From positions 1-22,801 of the IMG/VR virus record IMGVR_UViG_3300031703_000059: a stretch of 22,801 bases of DNA. The stretch is one strand, 5' to 3'. Of the stretch, positions 9,671-22,200 are shown piece after piece; positions within the stretch are counted from its first letter, which is position 1, and every line of letters begins with the position of its first letter. Source of the DNA: a virus. The notes below the pieces were generated by a model that was given only the letters and a program-made list of their open reading frames with translations, was not told the origin of the DNA and did no database searches. The position numbers were made by a program, and so were the translations under genes.

Positions 9671-11761
9671 ATGGCGAATATAGTAAACGTAACAACCTCT
9701 AACACTTTTGAAGAGTGGAGAGTTAAAACCAATGAGGTTGGGACTGCTGTTGGTGACCTCGATAATCTGACTTCACTTAATATAGGGGCGGCTGATATAG
9801 TCGCTGCTTTAACATTATCTAAGTCTAATGTAGATACCAACACAGGTAGTGTTGGTGTGATGGCAGACCTCTACGGTGTTCATACAAACCTAGTTGTAGC
9901 CTCTAACGATCTAGATACTAGAACAAGCACTAACCTAACCTCTATTGGTACAATGGGTTCGTTGTTTGGAAGTCACGCTAACCTAGTTGTTTCTTCTAAC
10001 GACTTGAATACTCGGACAATAACTAACCTAACCTCTATTGGTACAATGGGTTCTTTATACGGTTCTAAGACTAACCTTGTAACTGCTATAAACGACGCTG
10101 AAACACGATTGGGTGCTGCTGAAGTTGATATAGGTACTTGGTCTGGTTATACTGGATCTTCTGCTGATATCACCTCAGCCATTACAGCTATTGAACTTGT
10201 TCAGTCTAACTTAAGTGGTAACTATGTAGACGTTGCTGGTGATACGATGACTGGCGCTCTAATTGCTGCTGGTGGTGTATACGCTGCTACAGGTAATTAT
10301 CTGAACTTAGGTGTTAATGCCATAAACACAATACGTATTAACTCTAACAATAGAGTTGGTGTTGGTAAAGCCGCTCACTCCTCATATAAAGTAGACGTAT
10401 CTGGAACATTGAATGCCACTGATCTTAAGATTGGCGGTGAGTCTCTAGACGATAGATTCTTAGCTGCTTCTGAAGCTGGTGGTACTTCTACAATATCTTC
10501 TGTTACTGAATTCAGCGGTGCTATAACGATGTCTAAGTCGTTAACGCTTGGCTCTGAAAAAGTTTTTGACTCACACGCAAGTACTGGTATAACGTTTACT
10601 GAATACACCCAAGATATTGTCGGGGCTATGTTCACTGGTAATACAGAATCAGGTATTAGTGCGGTATATCAAGATAGTGATGGAACTGTTGACTTTGATG
10701 TTGATGACTTTACGATAACATTAACAGGTGATGTTGGTGGTGTTGGTACGGTTACTAACTTAGGTAATGTATCCTTCGTGACTACAGTTGCTGATGATTC
10801 GCATAACCATGTGATCTCTAACGTAGATGGACTTCAAAGTGCTTTGAACCTTAAAGCTGCTTTATCTGATCCAGACTTAACTGGTACTCCTACTGCTCCG
10901 ACCGCTGGTGCTGCTACTAATAACACGCAACTAGCTACGACTCAATATGTAACGTCAGCTATCACAGCTCTTGGTGGTGTGGCTCCAAACCTTCTTAATA
11001 CCTTAAACGAACTCGCTGCTGCTATTGGTGATGATGAAGACTTCGCTGGTACAATGACCCAGAACCTCGCTGGTAAAGTAGGTACAAGTTCTATTCAGGC
11101 TTTATCTACCGCTGCTAATGCGATGACTATAACTGGTCATACAATAACACTAGCTAGGGCTGACGGTTCTACTGATAGCGTAACGGTTCCTGATAATAAC
11201 GATAACACTCAGCGAGCTATTCACGATACACCAGTTAATGGTGCGACAACAACATCAATATCTTCTAACTGGGCTTTTGATAACGTTAAAACTGCGGTTC
11301 CTGCAGGAGCGGTCTTTACAGACAATAACACAACATACTCTGTTGGTGACAACGGGTTAACTCAGAAGAACTTAACAACAGCGTTACATACTTTATTAAG
11401 CGGAGCCACTGATAATAACACGAACTCTACCTTAGTTAAGCGGTCATCTACTGGACGTGTTGCGGTAAATACTCTTGAGGTTGGTAAAAACGGTGGCGGT
11501 GATTCTGAGCAATTCTTCTATGATGATAACTCTAATGATTTCAGAACGTTGAAGTGGGATGATTCATCTAGTGAATTCCAAGTTGAAGATAATGGAGGAA
11601 CTATGAGAACTATGTATCACTCTGGAAACCTTCCTGCTGCAACTCCTCATGGTATTAATGATGTTATAGTGAACGGTTCTACCACGACAGGAAAGACTAT
11701 ATATATTAACAATAACGGTCCATCTGGTGGATCAGATGGAGACGTGTGGTTTGAATACTAA
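9671..11761 (+). CDS. Modular tail fibre protein
   Basis: This 696-residue fibre has a predicted N-terminal attachment part (F-E-E-W-R-V-K-T-N-E at 13-22, typical of marine T4-like fibres), then three tandem 31-residue repeats (about 59-151). After these come the widespread fibre motif G-D-T-M-T-G-A-L and a run of beta-rich modules: D-I-V-G-A-M-x-T-G-N-T-E-S-G-I, D-D-S-H-N-H-V-I-S-N-V-D-G, L-T-G-T-P-T-A-P-T-A, L-N-E-L-A-A-A-I-x-D-D and A-N-A-M-T-I-T-G-H-T-I-T-L. The same modules return in the giant fibre starting at 19287. It ends in S-D-G-D-V-W-F-E-Y, a common fibre terminus. Composition is rich in T, S, N, G and A, with few charged or cysteine residues. It follows the 63-residue gene by three bases and overlaps the next gene at its 3' end. 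It is probably a trimeric shaft protein. Confidence 0.85.
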   Translation: MANIVNVTTSNTFEEWRVKTNEVGTAVGDLDNLTSLNIGAADIVAALTLSKSNVDTNTGSVGVMADLYGVHTNLVVASNDLDTRTSTNLTSIGTMGSLFGSHANLVVSSNDLNTRTITNLTSIGTMGSLYGSKTNLVTAINDAETRLGAAEVDIGTWSGYTGSSADITSAITAIELVQSNLSGNYVDVAGDTMTGALIAAGGVYAATGNYLNLGVNAINTIRINSNNRVGVGKAAHSSYKVDVSGTLNATDLKIGGESLDDRFLAASEAGGTSTISSVTEFSGAITMSKSLTLGSEKVFDSHASTGITFTEYTQDIVGAMFTGNTESGISAVYQDSDGTVDFDVDDFTITLTGDVGGVGTVTNLGNVSFVTTVADDSHNHVISNVDGLQSALNLKAALSDPDLTGTPTAPTAGAATNNTQLATTQYVTSAITALGGVAPNLLNTLNELAAAIGDDEDFAGTMTQNLAGKVGTSSIQALSTAANAMTITGHTITLARADGSTDSVTVPDNNDNTQRAIHDTPVNGATTTSISSNWAFDNVKTAVPAGAVFTDNNTTYSVGDNGLTQKNLTTALHTLLSGATDNNTNSTLVKRSSTGRVAVNTLEVGKNGGGDSEQFFYDDNSNDFRTLKWDDSSSEFQVEDNGGTMRTMYHSGNLPAATPHGINDVIVNGSTTTGKTIYINNNGPSGGSDGDVWFEY
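9929..10053 (+). repeat. 93-bp direct repeats in fibre N-terminal region
   Basis: Two identical 32-base stretches begin at 9929 and 10022, exactly 93 bases apart, within a three-copy 31-residue protein repeat (about 59-90, 91-121 and 122-151 of the fibre). The period is a multiple of three, so gain or loss of a unit would keep frame. The repeats contain N-L-V-V-x-x-N-D-L-x-T-R, suggestive of a stacked or coiled shaft segment. Confidence 0.75.
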
Positions 11762-12926
11762 AGTTAAAGTAAGTAGTGTTTGGCAGACAGTATCGGCGAA
11801 ATATGTAAAAGTATCTGGTGTATGGAAGAAAGTAAAAAAATCATACACTAAGGTCGGTGGTGTCTGGCAAGAATCTTATGTAGGTGAAAAGACTGTACGT
11901 CTCACAAAATCCTCTACAGTAGTCACCACAGGTTCAGAACGGGTGTATGCGGCACCGTCGGTAGACTCTGGTGTTGGTGTGTATACTGATATCAACTTAA
12001 ACACATACTTTACTGCTGCTGATAAACTATTCGATTGTAGGTTAATAGTTGACTCCGATGTAACCTTAGTCGGTTCATCAACATCAGCTTTCGCTTTACA
12101 AACTGGTTCTTCTTACACACGGTTAATGACTGTTGAGAACAACGGTAACATATTAGGTCGTGGTGGTGATGGAGGCAACGGTGCCTCTATTTATTTAATA
12201 GGTAACTACACTGGCTCGTATACTGGTGCTTATGCAGGTGCTTATGCAGGAACTTATACAGGGGCGTATTCCGGATCGTACTCTGGTGCATACTCTGGTG
12301 CATACTCTGGTGGTTATATAAGATATTACTCTGGTAGAAACGCTGGAACTTATACTGGATCATACACTGGATCATACACTGGCGCTTATGTTGGTTCTTA
12401 TTCTGGTGCTTACGCTGGATCGTATATTGGTTCTTATTCTGGTGCTTACGCTGGGACTTACGCTGGGTACGGTTTACAGTCTGGAGAAATTGGGTACGGT
12501 GGTGGAACGGCTATAAAGTTATTCAACAATATAGTAGTAACTGGTTCAGGTGTCATCAACGGTGGTGGCGGTGGCGGTGGCGGTGGTGGTGCTGCTAGAA
12601 ACGGTTGGACTATTGCTGGTGGTTCAGGTGGTGGTGGTCATCCGTATGGTGTTGGTGGTGTTAGAGGTACTGGTGCTACATATGCCCCAACAGCGAGCAC
12701 AACGCCAAATGGAACCATATCTGCTGCGGGTACACGTAGTGGAGCTCGTATAAATAATTATGTACAGTCAGGTGGTGGTGGAAATGGTGGCATCGCTGGT
12801 TCTAATGGATCTTATGGTGAGAATGCCGTGGACGCTAATAGTCCAGCCACTGCGGAATTAACATCAGGCGGTTCAGCAGGTTCCGCTGGTGTTGACTATG
12901 AATTAAACGGGTTTTCGGTAAGTTAA
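11736..12926 (+). CDS. Glycine-rich adhesin / receptor-binding protein with inserted aromatic tetrapeptide repeats
   Basis: From ATG 11736 the product has 396 residues. Residues 9-46 hold three K-V-(S/G)-(S/G)-V-W copies, a short tryptophan repeat often seen at the start of phage fibre-tip proteins. Residues about 128-152 and 246-396 are a glycine-rich domain with E-N-N-G-N-I-L-G-R-G-G and a run of ten glycines at 276-285. It recalls the glycine-rich tips of T-even gp38-type adhesins, which fold as polyglycine-II bundles. Between the two parts sit 21 tetrapeptide repeats. The gene overlaps the preceding fibre gene. The start is uncertain: GTG 11727 is upstream, and TTG 11751 has GGAG nine bases before it and gives M-N-T-K-V-K-V. 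A receptor-binding role is inferred from composition and position. Confidence 0.75.
   Translation: METCGLNTKVKVSSVWQTVSAKYVKVSGVWKKVKKSYTKVGGVWQESYVGEKTVRLTKSSTVVTTGSERVYAAPSVDSGVGVYTDINLNTYFTAADKLFDCRLIVDSDVTLVGSSTSAFALQTGSSYTRLMTVENNGNILGRGGDGGNGASIYLIGNYTGSYTGAYAGAYAGTYTGAYSGSYSGAYSGAYSGGYIRYYSGRNAGTYTGSYTGSYTGAYVGSYSGAYAGSYIGSYSGAYAGTYAGYGLQSGEIGYGGGTAIKLFNNIVVTGSGVINGGGGGGGGGGAARNGWTIAGGSGGGGHPYGVGGVRGTGATYAPTASTTPNGTISAAGTRSGARINNYVQSGGGGNGGIAGSNGSYGENAVDANSPATAELTSGGSAGSAGVDYELNGFSVS
12207..12470 (+). repeat. 12-bp tandem repeat coding for 21 (T/S/A)-G-x-Y units
   Basis: Starting at the tyrosine codon at 12207, tyrosine recurs every fourth residue through 21 units (T-G-S-Y, T-G-A-Y, A-G-A-Y and so on) to 12470, with no loss of phase. 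The only unit lacking Tyr at position four is S-G-R-N, which follows the irregular unit I-R-Y-Y. At the DNA level the units are similar 12-mers built around tay-nct-ggn-nct, so the number of units could change by slippage or recombination without a frameshift. The array corresponds to residues 158-245 of the adhesin. Confidence 0.9.
12561..12590 (+). repeat. Ten-codon polyglycine tract
   Basis: Thirty bases of GGT/GGC codons encode ten consecutive glycines in the adhesin's C-terminal domain. More GGSGGGG-type stretches follow within 40 residues. This is consistent with polyglycine-II packing in a phage adhesin tip, and the tract is a possible slippage site that would stay in frame when whole codons are gained or lost. 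Confidence 0.85.
12749..12756 (+). promoter_or_regulatory. Candidate late promoter box upstream of glycosyltransferase gene
   Basis: An exact TATAAATA on the coding strand lies inside the adhesin gene, about 174 bases before the ATG at 12930. If active it would give the first glycosyltransferase its own late transcript. Only the octamer supports this. Confidence 0.22.
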
Positions 12927-12929
12927 AAT

Positions 12930-13652
12930 ATGAATGGTTTTATTATTGTTGCGTCTTTAAATAAGGCGTTTTATGAGGCGGCACACAACTTAATTGATTC
13001 GCTATTGGATCACCTACCAGACGCGAACATAGCATTGTTCGCTCACGACGAATGGACTAAAGGTGATTCGAGGTGTGATGACTTATACCTTGTACACGAT
13101 TGCCCTAAACACATTAGATCGAAGTTATGGGCTTTACCTAAGTCCCCTTTCGACACAACTGTGTATCTAGACGCTGACACCCTAGTCTGTCACGATGATA
13201 TCACTGATATGTTCGAGCTTAAAGGTAACGATATGATGTTTACAAACATTAGAAGTTACGCTGGTAAGATCGATAAATTCATCGGCGGTCAAATGATTCT
13301 ACACGGTGGTGTATTCACGTATGATACTAAGAAGTGTACACCCTTTCTAGAAGATTGGTTCGACCTCTACCAGAAACAAATTAAAGATGAGTGGTGGCCT
13401 GATGAAGATATTAAACCAAAACATCAGTTAAAGGGTTGGGATCAATTTACTTTATGGTGGCTGTCTGAGTATAAATATAAGGACGACATAAAGATTGGTA
13501 TATATGATGATGACGCGAGATACAATTATGTGTACGTTTACAAAGATAACGAATGCAAAGGAGAGATTGTTGTTTGGCATTACACGGTTCCGAGGTCTCA
13601 GATAGATAAGTATCGGGCTGAATCATTTAAACCAACCACACAAATCATATAA
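12930..13652 (+). CDS. GT8-like (GT-A fold) glycosyltransferase A
   Basis: This 240-residue protein begins with a Rossmann-like strand (G-F-I-I-V-A-S-L-N). At about 78-85 it has V-Y-L-D-A-D-T-L, the D-x-D metal/nucleotide-sugar site of GT-A enzymes, preceded by K-L-W-A-L and followed by a G-G-V strand (126-128). G-W-D-Q-F-T-L-W-W at 169-177 and V-V-W-H-Y at 214-218 resemble the acceptor-side DQ and the C-terminal metal-binding His of GT8-type enzymes. It probably transfers a sugar from a nucleotide donor; donor and acceptor cannot be read from sequence. It has no membrane anchor. The gene lies three bases after the adhesin gene, inside a late structural operon with no strong Shine-Dalgarno sequence, so reinitiation after the adhesin is likely. 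That context favours modification of virion adhesins over host sugars, but this is inference. Confidence 0.75.
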   Translation: MNGFIIVASLNKAFYEAAHNLIDSLLDHLPDANIALFAHDEWTKGDSRCDDLYLVHDCPKHIRSKLWALPKSPFDTTVYLDADTLVCHDDITDMFELKGNDMMFTNIRSYAGKIDKFIGGQMILHGGVFTYDTKKCTPFLEDWFDLYQKQIKDEWWPDEDIKPKHQLKGWDQFTLWWLSEYKYKDDIKIGIYDDDARYNYVYVYKDNECKGEIVVWHYTVPRSQIDKYRAESFKPTTQII

Positions 13653-15928: not shown

Positions 15929-17227
15929 GTGAGTAGACCTTTAAAGATTAAATACAGCGGATCGACGTTCGACGGCTTGCAAGAGATGACGAACACTGAG
16001 TTAGACGGTGTAGCTGATTTAATCTTGAAGGAGTTTATCGATAACGTTGGGACAGGTCACCTTGCTATGAATACGCAAGGCACTTGGACTGATATTGGTA
16101 CGTTCGTTGATACAATCCGCACAGAGGCTGTTGGAACACACCCAGCCTCTGGTGCAGTAACATCTACTAATTACGTTTTCAGACAAAACCTAACTGCGGT
16201 TACACCTAACCCTTCAGTCAGACCATTAAGAATTAAGTATGATGGTGCGACGTTTAAGGGTACTCAGGATATGTCTAATGCTGAGATCGTCACTAACGTA
16301 ATTAACCGCTGCAAATCCAAACTAGCTGGTTTCTCTATAGGTTCATATAAACTACAACCTTCATCCCCTGCTGGTGGATCTTGGTCGGCTGTTGCTACTA
16401 TAACTAACACACGAAGAGATGCTGCTGCTGAAACATCTACCCTTTGGAAACGTATAGATACTCCATCGGCTACAATAACTAACCCTATAAAACATACGTC
16501 TTCGTTAACTATCAAAGAGATGACTAACGCTGAAGTTATAGGATTGACTGATTCATTAAGGTCAGAAATAGTCGCTTCTGGTATAGGTAAGTATGAATTG
16601 TCTGCTAACTCACCAGCTGGTGGTGGTTCTTGGCAACAATGTGGTTCTGGTTTTTCAGATACCAGAAAGGTTGTATCGAACGTAACATATTCGGCAGGTT
16701 ATACTGGCACTTATAACCGTAACTGGGCAGGCGTGTATACAGGTTCTTATAATAGAACTTATACTGGTACTTACTCAGGTGGTTATGTCCATGCTTACGC
16801 TGGTACATATAACAGAACTTATACTGGGTCATACTCAGGTGGTTATGTACACAGTTGGGCAGGCACATATAACAGAACTTATACTGGGTCATACGCTGGC
16901 GGTTATGTAAGATATTATGCTGGTACTAATTATGGTACATATACTGGCTATTACGCTGGTGGTTATGTACACAGTTGGGCAGGCACATATAACAGAACTT
17001 ATACTGGTGTATATTCTGGTGGTTATGTACACAGTTGGGCTGGATCGTATAACAGAACATGGACTGGCGTGTATACAGGAAACTATGTACACAGTTGGGC
17101 TGGATCGTATTCAGGTTATTACGCGAATACTTACGCAGGAACATATACAGGAAACTATGTAGGTGCTACGGTGCAATCAGCATTGGAAACAGCTAATACA
17201 CTAAAACTTTGGATGAGAGTAACATAA
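15929..17227 (+). CDS. Aromatic tetrapeptide-repeat tail protein (candidate adhesin)
   Basis: This 432-residue protein starts at GTG. It has three N-terminal repeats of about 60-65 residues (about 3-65, 98-163 and 188-247), sharing I-K-Y-x-G-x-T-F, an M-T/S-N-x-E helix start, and in copies two and three G-S/K-Y-x-L...S-P-A-G-G-x-S-W...T-R. This N-terminal module occurs in tail proteins of marine T4-like phages. From residue 258 to 410 the protein is 38 consecutive tetrapeptides with Tyr or Trp every fourth residue; 18 unique residues follow, ending L-K-L-W-M-R-V-T. The repeat resembles the one in the adhesin at 11736. Aromatic, Ser/Thr and Gly richness suggests a surface-exposed, carbohydrate-binding or glycosylated stalk. 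No known catalytic motif is present. The name 'adhesin' is inference. Confidence 0.75.
   Translation: MSRPLKIKYSGSTFDGLQEMTNTELDGVADLILKEFIDNVGTGHLAMNTQGTWTDIGTFVDTIRTEAVGTHPASGAVTSTNYVFRQNLTAVTPNPSVRPLRIKYDGATFKGTQDMSNAEIVTNVINRCKSKLAGFSIGSYKLQPSSPAGGSWSAVATITNTRRDAAAETSTLWKRIDTPSATITNPIKHTSSLTIKEMTNAEVIGLTDSLRSEIVASGIGKYELSANSPAGGGSWQQCGSGFSDTRKVVSNVTYSAGYTGTYNRNWAGVYTGSYNRTYTGTYSGGYVHAYAGTYNRTYTGSYSGGYVHSWAGTYNRTYTGSYAGGYVRYYAGTNYGTYTGYYAGGYVHSWAGTYNRTYTGVYSGGYVHSWAGSYNRTWTGVYTGNYVHSWAGSYSGYYANTYAGTYTGNYVGATVQSALETANTLKLWMRVT
16700..17158 (+). repeat. 12-bp tandem repeat (38 units) with 60-bp higher-order period
   Basis: From the Tyr codon at 16700, 38 four-residue units follow with no phase break; each ends in Tyr or Trp except one (A-G-T-N). 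Five units form a higher-order 20-residue, 60-bp block: AGTY NRTY TGSY SGGY VHSW. The V-H/V-R unit falls at units 8, 13, 18, 23, 28 and 33, and N-R-T units at 5, 10, 15, 25 and 30 (unit 20 is Y-G-T-Y; unit 2, N-R-N-W, is off phase). Copies of the 60-bp block are close to identical in DNA, so recent in-frame expansion is likely. Confidence 0.93.
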
Positions 17228-17230
17228 ACT

Positions 17231-17644
17231 ATGATTAAAAAGATAATCACACCTAGATGGGATAACGAAGCTAAAACTAGAGTTCGTTGTACTTTCGAAT
17301 ATGAAGATGGTTCTAACGTAACTGCTGCAGTTAGTGATACTGAAGGTGGTAATCCAGACTGGACGCAGATATTCACTGATTTTAAAGAAGAAGATATAGG
17401 TGCGTTCGATGGTAAAAAAAGGATGCCTAAAGGACAGCACGGTGGTCGAGAACAAGACCCATTCGTGAAGCAGAAAGATTTGAATGAGATGTTATTCACA
17501 TCCAAATTAGAAGCTTTCGAGATTGCTGAAATCAAAAACTCAAAAAATCGAGTCTTGAAGTCTAAGATCCGTAAATCTAAAACAATGACCGAAATTACTG
17601 CTTATACAGCGGCTATTATCCTCTCGGAGATGGACACTAAATAA
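17231..17644 (+). CDS. Conserved phage protein of unknown function
   Basis: This 137-residue protein is not assigned to a family. The N-terminal 45 residues look like a small beta-hairpin domain (F-E-Y-E-D-G-S-x-V-x-A-A-V-S-D-T-E-G-G-N-P-D-W), a pattern I associate with hypothetical proteins near phage fibre genes. The middle is charged (G-K-K-R-M-P-K-G-Q-H-G-G-R-E-Q-D-P-F), and the last 60 residues are helical with many Lys/Arg (K-N-S-K-N-R-V-L-K-S-K-I-R-K-S-K). It has no signal peptide or membrane segment. It lies three bases after the aromatic-repeat gene and before the oxygenase, so a fibre assembly or chaperone role is possible but unproven. Confidence 0.6.
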   Translation: MIKKIITPRWDNEAKTRVRCTFEYEDGSNVTAAVSDTEGGNPDWTQIFTDFKEEDIGAFDGKKRMPKGQHGGREQDPFVKQKDLNEMLFTSKLEAFEIAEIKNSKNRVLKSKIRKSKTMTEITAYTAAIILSEMDTK

Positions 17645-17669: not shown

Positions 17670-18299
17670 ATGATGAGAGACGTGGAAATTAACGACCCGT
17701 ATATCCTAGAAAGGTTAAACGGGTTTTTAGAATCATTCAATAAACTAGATATCGAAAAGTCCTTTAAGATGGACAACCGAGACCCATCCATAGATAAAGT
17801 TTATGGTACTTCGGAAGAATACCTAAAGAAGATGCGGGTCGAAGGTCACGTAGGATACCCTATGGCGATCAAAGGCATAGATATCCTAGCTCACCCAACT
17901 AAGAAAGACGGTTGGGGTGAGATTGAACAGGAAGTGTCTTATGAGTTCGGAAGAGAACTAGGGGCGCAACAAAACGCACTCTGCTGTTACTACCCTTCTG
18001 ATGGGTTTATAGGTTGGCACGATAACCACGACGCTCCAGGTCACACACTACTATTCACTTGGTCCGCAACAGGTGACGGTTACTATAGGTACAGAGATAT
18101 CGATACTGGTGAAGTTAAAACTTTACCTGATAGAGCTGGTTGGATCTGTAGAACTGGTGAGTACGGGGACGGTAAGGCTGCTCCTGAACAATGGCACTGT
18201 GCTGCTACGAACGAACCAAGATGGTCTATAGCATTTTACGTTAGGTCTAAAGCGATGATTGATATGATAGTTGAAGATCTTGAATATCCTGACAGTTAA
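17670..18299 (+). CDS. 2OG-Fe(II) oxygenase-like protein
   Basis: This 209-residue protein has the layout of a 2-oxoglutarate/Fe(II) dioxygenase double-stranded beta helix. It shows C-C-Y-Y-P-S-D-G-F-I-G-W-H at 105-117, P-G-H-T-L-L-F-T-W-S, G-D-G-Y-Y-R-Y-R-D, P-D-R-A-G-W, then W-H-C-A-A-T-N-E-P-R-W-S at 175-186. His117 and His176 would bind iron and Arg184 would bind 2-oxoglutarate. The position two residues after His117 is Asn119 instead of the usual Asp/Glu. The fold resembles AlkB- and prolyl-hydroxylase-like families common in marine T4-like phages; the substrate is unknown. ATG 17670 is followed at once by ATG 17673, whose spacing from AAGGA (six bases) is better, so the true start may be one codon later. 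It overlaps the downstream glycosyltransferase by 29 bases. Confidence 0.75.
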   Translation: MMRDVEINDPYILERLNGFLESFNKLDIEKSFKMDNRDPSIDKVYGTSEEYLKKMRVEGHVGYPMAIKGIDILAHPTKKDGWGEIEQEVSYEFGRELGAQQNALCCYYPSDGFIGWHDNHDAPGHTLLFTWSATGDGYYRYRDIDTGEVKTLPDRAGWICRTGEYGDGKAAPEQWHCAATNEPRWSIAFYVRSKAMIDMIVEDLEYPDS

Positions 18300-19287: not shown

Positions 19288-22200
19288 TGTCAATAAAAAT
19301 CCAACTAAGAAGGGACTCCTCTTCAAACTGGGTAACACATAACCCAGTACTAGGCGACGGTGAAATCGGTCTAGACGAAACAAATAACTATTTTAAAATC
19401 GGTGACGGCTCTAGTGCTTGGACCGCTTTATCTAACTTCACACAAAGTGTTGAATCTGTACAAGACATCATAGGCGCTATGATAACAGGTAATACCGAAT
19501 CAGGTATCGCTGTTACATATAATGACGCCACTGGTAAGTTGAACTTTGATGTTGGTGATCCTAACTTAAGTATCTCTGGCGACGCTAGTGGTACTGCGTC
19601 AATGTCTGACTTAGGTAACACTGATATTGCTGTTACTTTAGCAGCGACTGGTGTTACTGCTGCTTCATACGGTTCCGCTTCACAAGTCCCTGTTATTACG
19701 GTAGACGCTAAAGGTCGTATCACTGCTGCTTCAACAACTAATGTTGCTGGTGTAACAGACTTTGATTATAATACCTCGACTGGTGTTCTGGATATTGATA
19801 CTGCTGACGGAGCTAACTTCGCCACAACAGTAACATTAGATCCATTCGATACTGCTGATTTAACTGAAGGTTCAAACCTTTACTTTACAGACGCTCGTGT
19901 AATGACTTCGTTGGCTACAGTTTCTGGGCATATTATCCCTGATACTGATGTAACGTATGACTTAGGTTCTTCTGCTAACAAGTTCAGAGACCTATACTTA
20001 AGTGGTTCTACAATCTATTTGGGTGGCGCGACTATTACCGCTTCTGGCAGCACTGTTGTTCTTCCTACTGGTTCAGGTGGTGAATCTCCTGCGTTTACTG
20101 GTACTCCAACGGCACCTACTGCTGCAGCTAATACCAATACAACTCAGGTAGCGACTACTGCATATGTTCAAGCAGAACTTACTGAGTTAATCGGTGGCGC
20201 TCCTGGAACGTTAGATACTCTTAATGAGTTAGCTGCTGCGATTAATGACGACGCTGCTTACGCTTCTACACTAACAACCGCTTTAGGTACTAAAGAGCCT
20301 ACAATTACTGCTGGCACTACATTACAGTATTGGAGGGGTGATAAATCTTGGCAGACAATAGATAGTTCAGTTGTTCCTGAAAATACTAATCTATATTGGA
20401 CTACTGGCCGTGGTCAGAGTATGTTCGATACACGTCTAGCTACTAAAGATACTGCTAATTTAGCTGAAGGAACTAACCTCTATTGGACTACTACACGTGG
20501 TCAATCTATGTTCGATACACGTCTAGCTACTAAGAATACTGGTAACTTGACTGAAGGAAGTAACTTATACTGGACAACTGCTCGTGGTGACGCGAACTTT
20601 GATACACGTCTAGCTACTAAAGATACTGGTAATATAGGGGAAGGTTCTAACCTTTACTATACTGACGAACGTGTAGATGATAGAGTTAACGCTTTATTGG
20701 TTGCTGGTGCTAACGTATCATTGGTTTATGATGATTCTGCTGGTACGATGACTATCGCAGCAACTGAAGATAATCTATCTAACAATGATACTGATGATTT
20801 ATCTGAAGGTTCTACTAACCTTTACCATACAACAGCGAGAGCAAGGGCTGCTATCTCTGGAACTGGTTCTCTAAGTTATAGTTCTGGTACTGGTGTAATG
20901 TCCTTTACCCAAGGGAATACAGATACAATCACTGAAGGTTCTACTAACCTCTATTATACTGATGCTAGATCTAGAGCCGCTATTTCAGCGACTGGTTCTC
21001 TAGCTTACGATAACGGTACTGGTGTTATCTCGTTCACTATGAATGATGAGACTGTTCAGGATATCGTTGGCGCTATGGTAGCGTCTAATACTGAGTCTGG
21101 TATTGCTGTCACGTATGACGACGCTTCTGGTAAGTTGAACTTTGATGTTGGTGATCCAACGATTACCCTTGGCGGTGATTTGTCTGGTTCTGTGACACTT
21201 ACTAACCTCGGCAACGGTACATTAACTGCTACGATTGCTGATGACTCGCATAACCATGTGATCTCTAACGTAGACGGTTTTCAAGGTGAACTTGATGCTA
21301 AGGTAGACGACTCTCAAGTATTAACTGACGTTCCTGCTGGTGCTTTGTTTACTGATACAGTATACACCCACCCAGCGGCTCACGCAATCTCGTTTATTAC
21401 TGGCCTCCAAGCTGCTCTTAACGGTAAGATTGATGACTCTCAAGTATTAACTGACGTTCCTGCGGGGGCTTTGTTTACCGACACAACTTACACAGTAGGT
21501 GATGGTGGTCTAACGACTAACGACTTCACTACAGCTGATCATAGTAAGTTGGATGGTATTGAAGCATCTGCTACCGCTGATCAAACTAACGGAGAGATTC
21601 GTACGGCTGTTGAAGCTGCCACGGATTCTAACGTATTCACAGACGCTGATCATACTAAGTTGAACGGTATTGCGGCATCTGCTACCAATTACTCTCACCC
21701 AGCTAATCACGCTATATCAGTAATTACTGGTCTACAGGCTGCTTTGAACCTTAAAGCTCCCCTTGCTAGCCCTGCGTTAACTGGATCTCCTACTGCTCCA
21801 ACTGCTGCTGCTAATACCAATACTACTCAAGTTGCTACAACTGCGTATGTACAGGCTGAATTAACAGAACTTATTGGTGGTGCTCCTGGAACGTTAGATA
21901 CTCTGAACGCATTGGCTGAAGCGATTAATGATGATGCGGCTTACGCTTCTACATTAACTACTGCTCTTGGTACTAAGGTAACTAAAACAACCAATCAGGC
22001 ACTAAGTTCAGCGGCTGATGCTATGACTATATCTGGTCATACTATTACCTTAAACCGTGGCGATGGTACTACGGATACTGTAACAGTTCCTGATAATAAC
22101 ACTACCTATTCTGTAGGTGATGGTGCGTTAACTCAGAAGAACTTTACCACTACATTAAAGAACAAGTTAGACGCGATTGAAGCTTCTGCTGATGTTACAG

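Follow-up and report, generated by a model that had tools for sequence, protein, structure and literature searches.

Mirror-symmetric arrays of aromatic tetrapeptides as a probable hairpin shaft of fibres in uncultured phages

Phage fibres decide host range, and their known shafts are built from a handful of folds. Known systems that bear comparison with the arrays described here include: (i) the receptor-binding needle of T4 gp37 at the distal tip of the long tail fibre, in which beta strands run out and back to form a thin needle with a receptor-binding tip, (ii) the polyglycine-rich adhesins of the S16 gp38 type, polyglycine helices having a period of three, and (iii) the collagen-like and triple-beta-spiral shafts of phages and viruses, in which the chains are unidirectional and the period is 3 or about 15. 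In the T4 gp37 needle, glycine on a strand of one subunit is packed onto an aromatic residue in the core that another subunit contributes (G921-F970), and seven iron atoms are coordinated via His residues (PMC6957217).

The window analysed here is a 22,801-nucleotide stretch of viral DNA, the entire contig of its record (IMG/VR record IMGVR_UViG_3300031703_000059), in which a protein of a marine-type phage, a member of a large family of uncultured phages, carries a long array of aromatic tetrapeptides (Table 1). The array is likely to be the shaft of a phage fibre, formed by one chain that runs out and back. Judged by analogy, the T4 gp37 needle is the closest known counterpart of this model: the strands of both run out and back, and the alternation of glycines and aromatics in the array, with aromatic facing aromatic and glycine facing glycine, resembles the glycine-aromatic packing of gp37 (PMC6957217). 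By contrast, the gp37 needle has an irregular sequence and one fixed length, whereas the array family keeps a strict four-residue period in arms of about 6 to 164 units. Assignment of the arrays to gp37 itself was rejected, as there is no sequence match, no HxH metal-binding motif in the window array, and a different repeat. The window's second array (ORF 11727) interrupts a Gly-rich, tail-fibre-like domain and in this respect is reminiscent of the S16 gp38 type; unlike the latter, the arrays have Gly at every fourth residue with an aromatic between, and the main protein is without a Gly-rich domain. Gly lies two residues after each aromatic, which gives a period of four and not the Gly at every third residue of a collagen-like or polyglycine-II structure. 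Collagen-like and triple-beta-spiral shafts are likewise repetitive and vary in length with unit number, but the array chain returns and its halves mirror each other.

The array protein and its relatives

Table 1. Features of the window that bear on the hairpin arrays. Neighbour counts come from loci fetched for carrying arrays and describe synteny, not enrichment.
Feature	Position	Strand	Evidence
Second array protein, Gly-rich and tail-fibre-like, with hairpin module	11727..12926	+	PHROG tail fiber protein, E=1.7e-08; array 52% identical to main array
Second hairpin array, 11 and 10 aromatics, tip YSGRNAGTY (12327-12353), within Gly-rich region	12207..12461	+	Register reading; tip comparison
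Glycosyltransferase-like protein, 240 aa, DxD-type motif DADT by eye, directly after second array gene	12930..13652	+	Homologues within 3 kb downstream of 95 family genes (synteny)
Array protein, 432 aa, GTG start: three N-terminal repeats, aromatic tetrapeptide array, short C-terminal strand	15929..17227	+	ORF list; family alignment A1
Three N-terminal repeats, aa 1-253, confident fold; final strand runs into array	15929..16687	+	AlphaFold pLDDT about 85-97 over aa 1-250, strand 242-259; profile matches 200 ORFs in fetched loci
Outgoing arm, 20 aromatic tetrapeptides (Y-x-G-x)	16688..16918	+	Register reading, arm counts
Predicted hairpin tip YAGTNYGTY, preceded by YVRY; sole register interruption	16916..16942	+	Tip spacing, AlphaFold
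Returning arm, 19 aromatic tetrapeptides	16940..17158	+	Arm counts 20 and 19; non-Gly units mirror outgoing arm, p=3.8e-4
Conserved C-terminal strand VGATVQSALETANTLKLWMRVT, closes repeat 3	17159..17224	+	Alignment A1; AlphaFold strand 405-430, pLDDT about 85-95 from aa 411
137-aa protein, candidate assembly chaperone (from position)	17231..17644	+	Homologue immediately downstream of family gene in 96 cases (synteny)
209-aa protein, possible 2-oxoglutarate/Fe(II) oxygenase by motif (WHDN...H)	17670..18299	+	Homologues within 3 kb downstream of 82 family genes (synteny)

Tyr or Trp occupies 39 of 40 every-fourth positions in a single phase between aa 254 and 410 (nt 16688-17158), while the best phase in 20,000 shuffles of the array's own residues reached 21 aromatics and never more. 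The lone gap in the register is Asn at aa 334, within YAGTNYGTY, which lies at the dead centre with 20 aromatics before it and 19 after. Thus, the 38-unit aromatic register claimed in the initial annotation stands as to its four-residue spacing and single phase but is not unbroken; the central Asn gap and the second array in ORF 11727-12926 were both overlooked there. The 20-residue superperiod that it reported is real (YNRT-YTGS-YSGG-YVHS-WAGT). The 60-bp DNA copies, which it took to be near-identical, have an in-register identity of only 0.60-0.85, the first block about 0.5, so that the window DNA alone gives no proof of recent expansion. Its expectation of length variation is borne out among close relatives, which differ in unit number with both arms changing in coordination.

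A DNA pattern for Y-x-G-x units retrieved 120 viral stretches. A profile of the N-terminal domain matches 78 ORFs in these stretches and 200 ORFs in an enlarged set that retains overlapping contigs; the window protein as query found no close relatives in viral contigs. Alignment A1, which comprises the window protein and 26 relatives that are 30-57% identical, has a layout of three N-terminal repeats, array and conserved C-terminal strand, with invariant or near-invariant columns. The array is flanked by the three-repeat domain and by a C-terminal strand of the pattern T-[IV]-x(8-10)-L-[WYF]-x-R, and the window protein fits this arrangement (alignment A1, profile search). Because repeat 2 has a short hairpin turn at the matching place, the array would have been inserted into the final hairpin of repeat 3, and the AlphaFold strands at 242-259 and 405-430 support this placement. 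Arrays of the family range from about 13 to over 320 units, and a tip spacing of 8 residues is common to 26 members.

Searches of Pfam, PHROGs and NCBIfam gave no match to the window protein. Its comparison to PDB sequences gave just one compositional repeat match and chance-level matches, none of them convincing, and no tail fibre, including T4 gp37, is among the PDB sequence matches of the window protein or the A2 profile. The PDB match to an IgA1 protease repeat was dismissed as a compositional YTG repeat with a different period. Searches of bacterial and archaeal genomes with the array pattern gave, among the matches listed, short Gly/Tyr-rich proteins alone and no family member, and no description of such arrays was found in the literature. 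The early suspicion of an undescribed pattern is upheld by these searches and, as far as could be found, the aromatic-tetrapeptide hairpin is a common but undescribed design in uncultured phages.

A search of 50,697 phage records with three N-terminal domain queries gave a sole relative, a 3347-aa hypothetical protein of phage C48C1 (OQ984149, Kyanoviridae), on which no literature was found; a query of the repeats alone, subject to low-complexity filtering, gave no match in phages. The C48C1 protein has the N-terminal repeats (24% identity over 246 aa) and the C-terminal strand in common with the window protein, and tetrapeptide arrays as well. Its array, unlike that of the window, is irregular, with TRTS-type units and several globular inserts, and simple mirror symmetry is not seen. 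The C48C1 protein (L003:14443-24486), in which aromatic and TRTS-type units occur, also has a stretch of about 75 aa twice in tandem (aa about 2007-2157), which is perhaps a real duplication or an assembly artefact. Arrays with other features include an unrelated protein, L120 (open frame at offset 87, 586 aa), with arms of 15 and 13 units, a central Cys/His cluster (CDRCCHAH) and CSRCG at the end of the array; these clusters, as read from the sequence, suggest a metal site at the array tip and base. In a distinct sub-branch (L115 and L211), some units are acidic, as in YTGDYGRIDPE, and the runs are long, with 267 units in L211.

Mirror symmetry and residue matching of the two arms

The number of units before the tip closely predicts the number after it (r=0.981 for 41 members with one short interruption; in 34 of the 41 the difference is exactly one unit), and the observed arm symmetry was not reached in any of 20,000 random placements of the interruption. 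The window array has the same equality, with 20 and 19 units around one central interruption. In giant arrays, equal arms surround a central insert (128 and 126 units around 95 residues, 116 and 115 around 110, 34 and 34 around 185, and 29 and 29 around 99), and another giant has 164 and 163 units. Two-residue phase slips, where they occur, are equidistant from both ends (7 and 12 in either arm, 8 and 13 in either arm, or 10, 15 and 20 in either arm); such mirrored slips are noted in L020, L048, L081, L102 and L004, and at two of three places in L062. The facing slips are unlike, with the K-type (PKT, AKN) always opposite the T-type (TSA, TGT). Length also changes in coordination, as L127 (8 and 7 units) and L128 (10 and 9) differ by two units per arm and L028 and L091 by eight per arm. 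A few members (e.g., L104 and L105) are exceptions to the equality of arms, and the mirror rule is not seen in L003, L170 and other members of an irregular branch that carries TRTS-type units. An origin of one arm by direct duplication of its partner was dismissed, as it would yield a parallel order and the observed order is mirrored. How arms hundreds of residues apart gain and lose units in step is an evolutionary puzzle.

If the arms are aligned outward from the tip, so that the two aromatics flanking it form the first pair, the identity of the aromatics (Tyr versus Phe/Trp) matches across the arms. In L068, 79 Tyr/Tyr and 42 other/other pairs stand against 5 mismatches (79/2/3/42; p=2.5e-27), and the same match is found in L008 (p=6e-13) and L057 (p=3e-15), with null results at registers one unit away. 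The rule extends to L074, which was not used in finding it (97 and 51 matched, 15 mismatched, 97/13/2/51; p=2e-27), and the parallel pairing of arms is far weaker than the antiparallel match. Over all arrays, mutual information peaks at the aromatic register (z=47.6) and is nil at neighbouring registers. Pairs of facing non-Gly residues are avoided at the aromatic register (8 cases, OR 0.13) and are enriched at the next (OR 6.7, p=2e-25). The window array, which has no Phe and in which the few Trp are unmatched at the aromatic register, follows the second rule, with its NRT units (YNRT) opposite its VHS units (YVHS; p=3.8e-4). The 20-residue superperiod of the window array is thus accounted for by mirror pairing, as YNRT facing YVHS makes the pattern self-complementary. 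A beta solenoid with one 20-residue coil per superperiod, which that periodicity in itself would favour, is highly improbable, since relatives that lack the superperiod are nonetheless mirror-symmetric and its origin in the window lies in the pairing of the arms.

The positions between aromatics covary at an offset other than that of the aromatics (x3-x3 at delta -2 and also 0, compared to delta +4 for aromatics). This disagreement is not explained by one flat two-stranded ribbon; two neighbours per arm, a partner arm and another chain, would explain the two offsets. An attempt to derive the exact strand register from covariation failed, as the two faces disagree (delta +4 versus -2). The strongest direct couplings are at even offsets. 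In the giants, both aromatic classes have their own lag-3 periodicity, and this periodicity within each arm is the source of the weaker cross-arm signals three units away. In L068, L008 and L057, Phe recurs at a spacing of three units (and also at one close to ten); this periodicity of about 13 residues may result from a twist of the shaft.

AlphaFold is not confident of the window array, with pLDDT below 50 over aa 257-406 and 26-37 in most of the array; low-confidence strands (326-330 and 333-338) are placed around the tip. These values, together with a composition dominated by Y, G, T and S, would suit a disordered Tyr/Gly stalk of low complexity, bound to sugars or other surfaces via many weak contacts. 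Such a stalk, however, would give no reason for arms to be equal, slips mirrored or residues matched across the arms, and is very unlikely. The flexible sugar-binding stalk put forward in the initial annotation is opposed by the exact equality of the arms, the mirrored phase slips and the cross-arm Phe/Tyr matching; pure disorder with unconserved aromatics, the outcome named there as a refutation, is half borne out, since AlphaFold confidence is low for the window array, but across the family the aromatic positions show strong conservation.

The predicted hairpin and its assembly

The array very probably folds as an antiparallel beta hairpin that serves as a shaft and bears the tip at its distal end. 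A single long hairpin (strands 238-278 and 281-330) is predicted by AlphaFold for L084, a relative with short arms that is 57% identical to the window protein, with an overall pLDDT of 84 and values of 53-68 in the array; the predicted turn falls within the tip and does not match the covariation register exactly. Fold searches with Foldseek and VIA-align gave no convincing fold; for a six-stranded trimeric needle of the T4 gp37 type, too, they offered weak matches. The second N-terminal repeat of the window protein (aa 132-177) has a weak, recurring structural match (Z 2.1-3.1) to T4 gp11, a protein that joins the baseplate and the short tail fibres. The stacked beta structure proposed in the initial annotation, aromatic face included, finds support here, while the mirror-symmetric, out-and-back hairpin with its central tip was missed.

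Equal arms would also be found in an antiparallel alpha-helical hairpin of the glycine-zipper type (GxxxG every four residues), and weak matches to Pfam Gly-zipper families occur in 10 of 27 members (best 1.9e-06). These scores are under the curated cut-offs: PF13441 and PF13488 do not match the window protein, and reach 19.6 bits for ORF 11727 (cut-off 25) and 22.3 bits for L068 (cut-off 28.9). The array is beta-prone in composition (Y, G, T and S make up 73%, Leu 0.6% and Glu 1.3%), the arrays of both AlphaFold models (window protein and L084) are strands only, and the direct couplings favour even offsets. Helical hairpins are, thus, accorded scarcely any probability.

In the proposed beta-hairpin shaft, the outgoing and returning arms would be antiparallel strands of equal length joined by a short tip, which is predicted to be an 8-residue loop in most relatives and a domain of 95-185 residues in many giants. 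Aromatics of opposite arms would be neighbours at a single, fixed register and alternate with glycines. The shaft would extend the last beta hairpin of the third N-terminal repeat, so that the folded domains anchor its base and its tip projects outward, presumably to bind the host. By analogy with other tail fibres, several hairpins, probably three, would bundle. At about 3.3 angstrom per residue, an arm would extend to about 26 nm in the window protein and about 217 nm in L074, if fully extended (an arithmetic estimate).

Whether the arrays represent a new class of fibre is evenly balanced; such a class would be defined by a single chain whose strictly periodic aromatic tetrapeptides form a mirror-image beta hairpin. 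In its assemblies, probably of three chains, each arm would contact its partner at one register and a neighbouring chain at another, and length would be tuned by the addition of units to both arms, up to 164 per arm. Arm length, tip and register are all readable from the DNA sequence alone, and hundreds of cross-strand contacts are, in a rare case, legible within single sequences. The design offers a natural, modular and length-programmable beta fibre.

Gene neighbourhood and a second array

By synteny, the shaft most likely belongs to a tail fibre. The array gene lies in a baseplate and tail-fibre region, the genes upstream of it have tail-fibre and structural PHROG matches, and the C48C1 relative is encoded between a tail assembly chaperone gene and a tail fibre assembly gene. 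A real hairpin in a protein other than a tail fibre (e.g., a baseplate whisker, a head fibre or decoration, or a secreted or assembly factor) is rather unlikely. This alternative draws on the functional annotation of the family, as no member has one and the C48C1 version is a hypothetical protein, and on other window proteins that match 'virion structural' as well as tail PHROGs. Against it, the surrounding genes in both the window and C48C1 are baseplate and tail-fibre genes, a candidate chaperone-like gene comes next after the array gene, and the second array resides in a protein that matches a tail-fibre PHROG.

The tip of this second array is identical to that of L084, a relative of the ORF 15929-17227 protein. 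Because the same tip thus occurs in proteins of different families, the hairpin module seems, from sequence, to move between genes.

The tail-fibre reading also gives possible roles to the neighbours. The 137-aa protein downstream of the array gene may aid folding, and the glycosyltransferase-like and oxygenase-like proteins, candidate identities that derive from motifs, might modify the Tyr/Thr/Ser-rich array of the fibre. The 137-aa and 209-aa proteins have no match in Pfam, PHROG or NCBIfam, and the 240-aa glycosyltransferase-like protein has no convincing match in Pfam, NCBIfam or PHROGs. A 238-aa neighbour at 18271 matches a glycosyltransferase PHROG (E=2e-14). Tandem repeats of 93 bp and 87 bp are present in two other fibre-like ORFs of the window, at 9887-10096 and 20385-20653, respectively.
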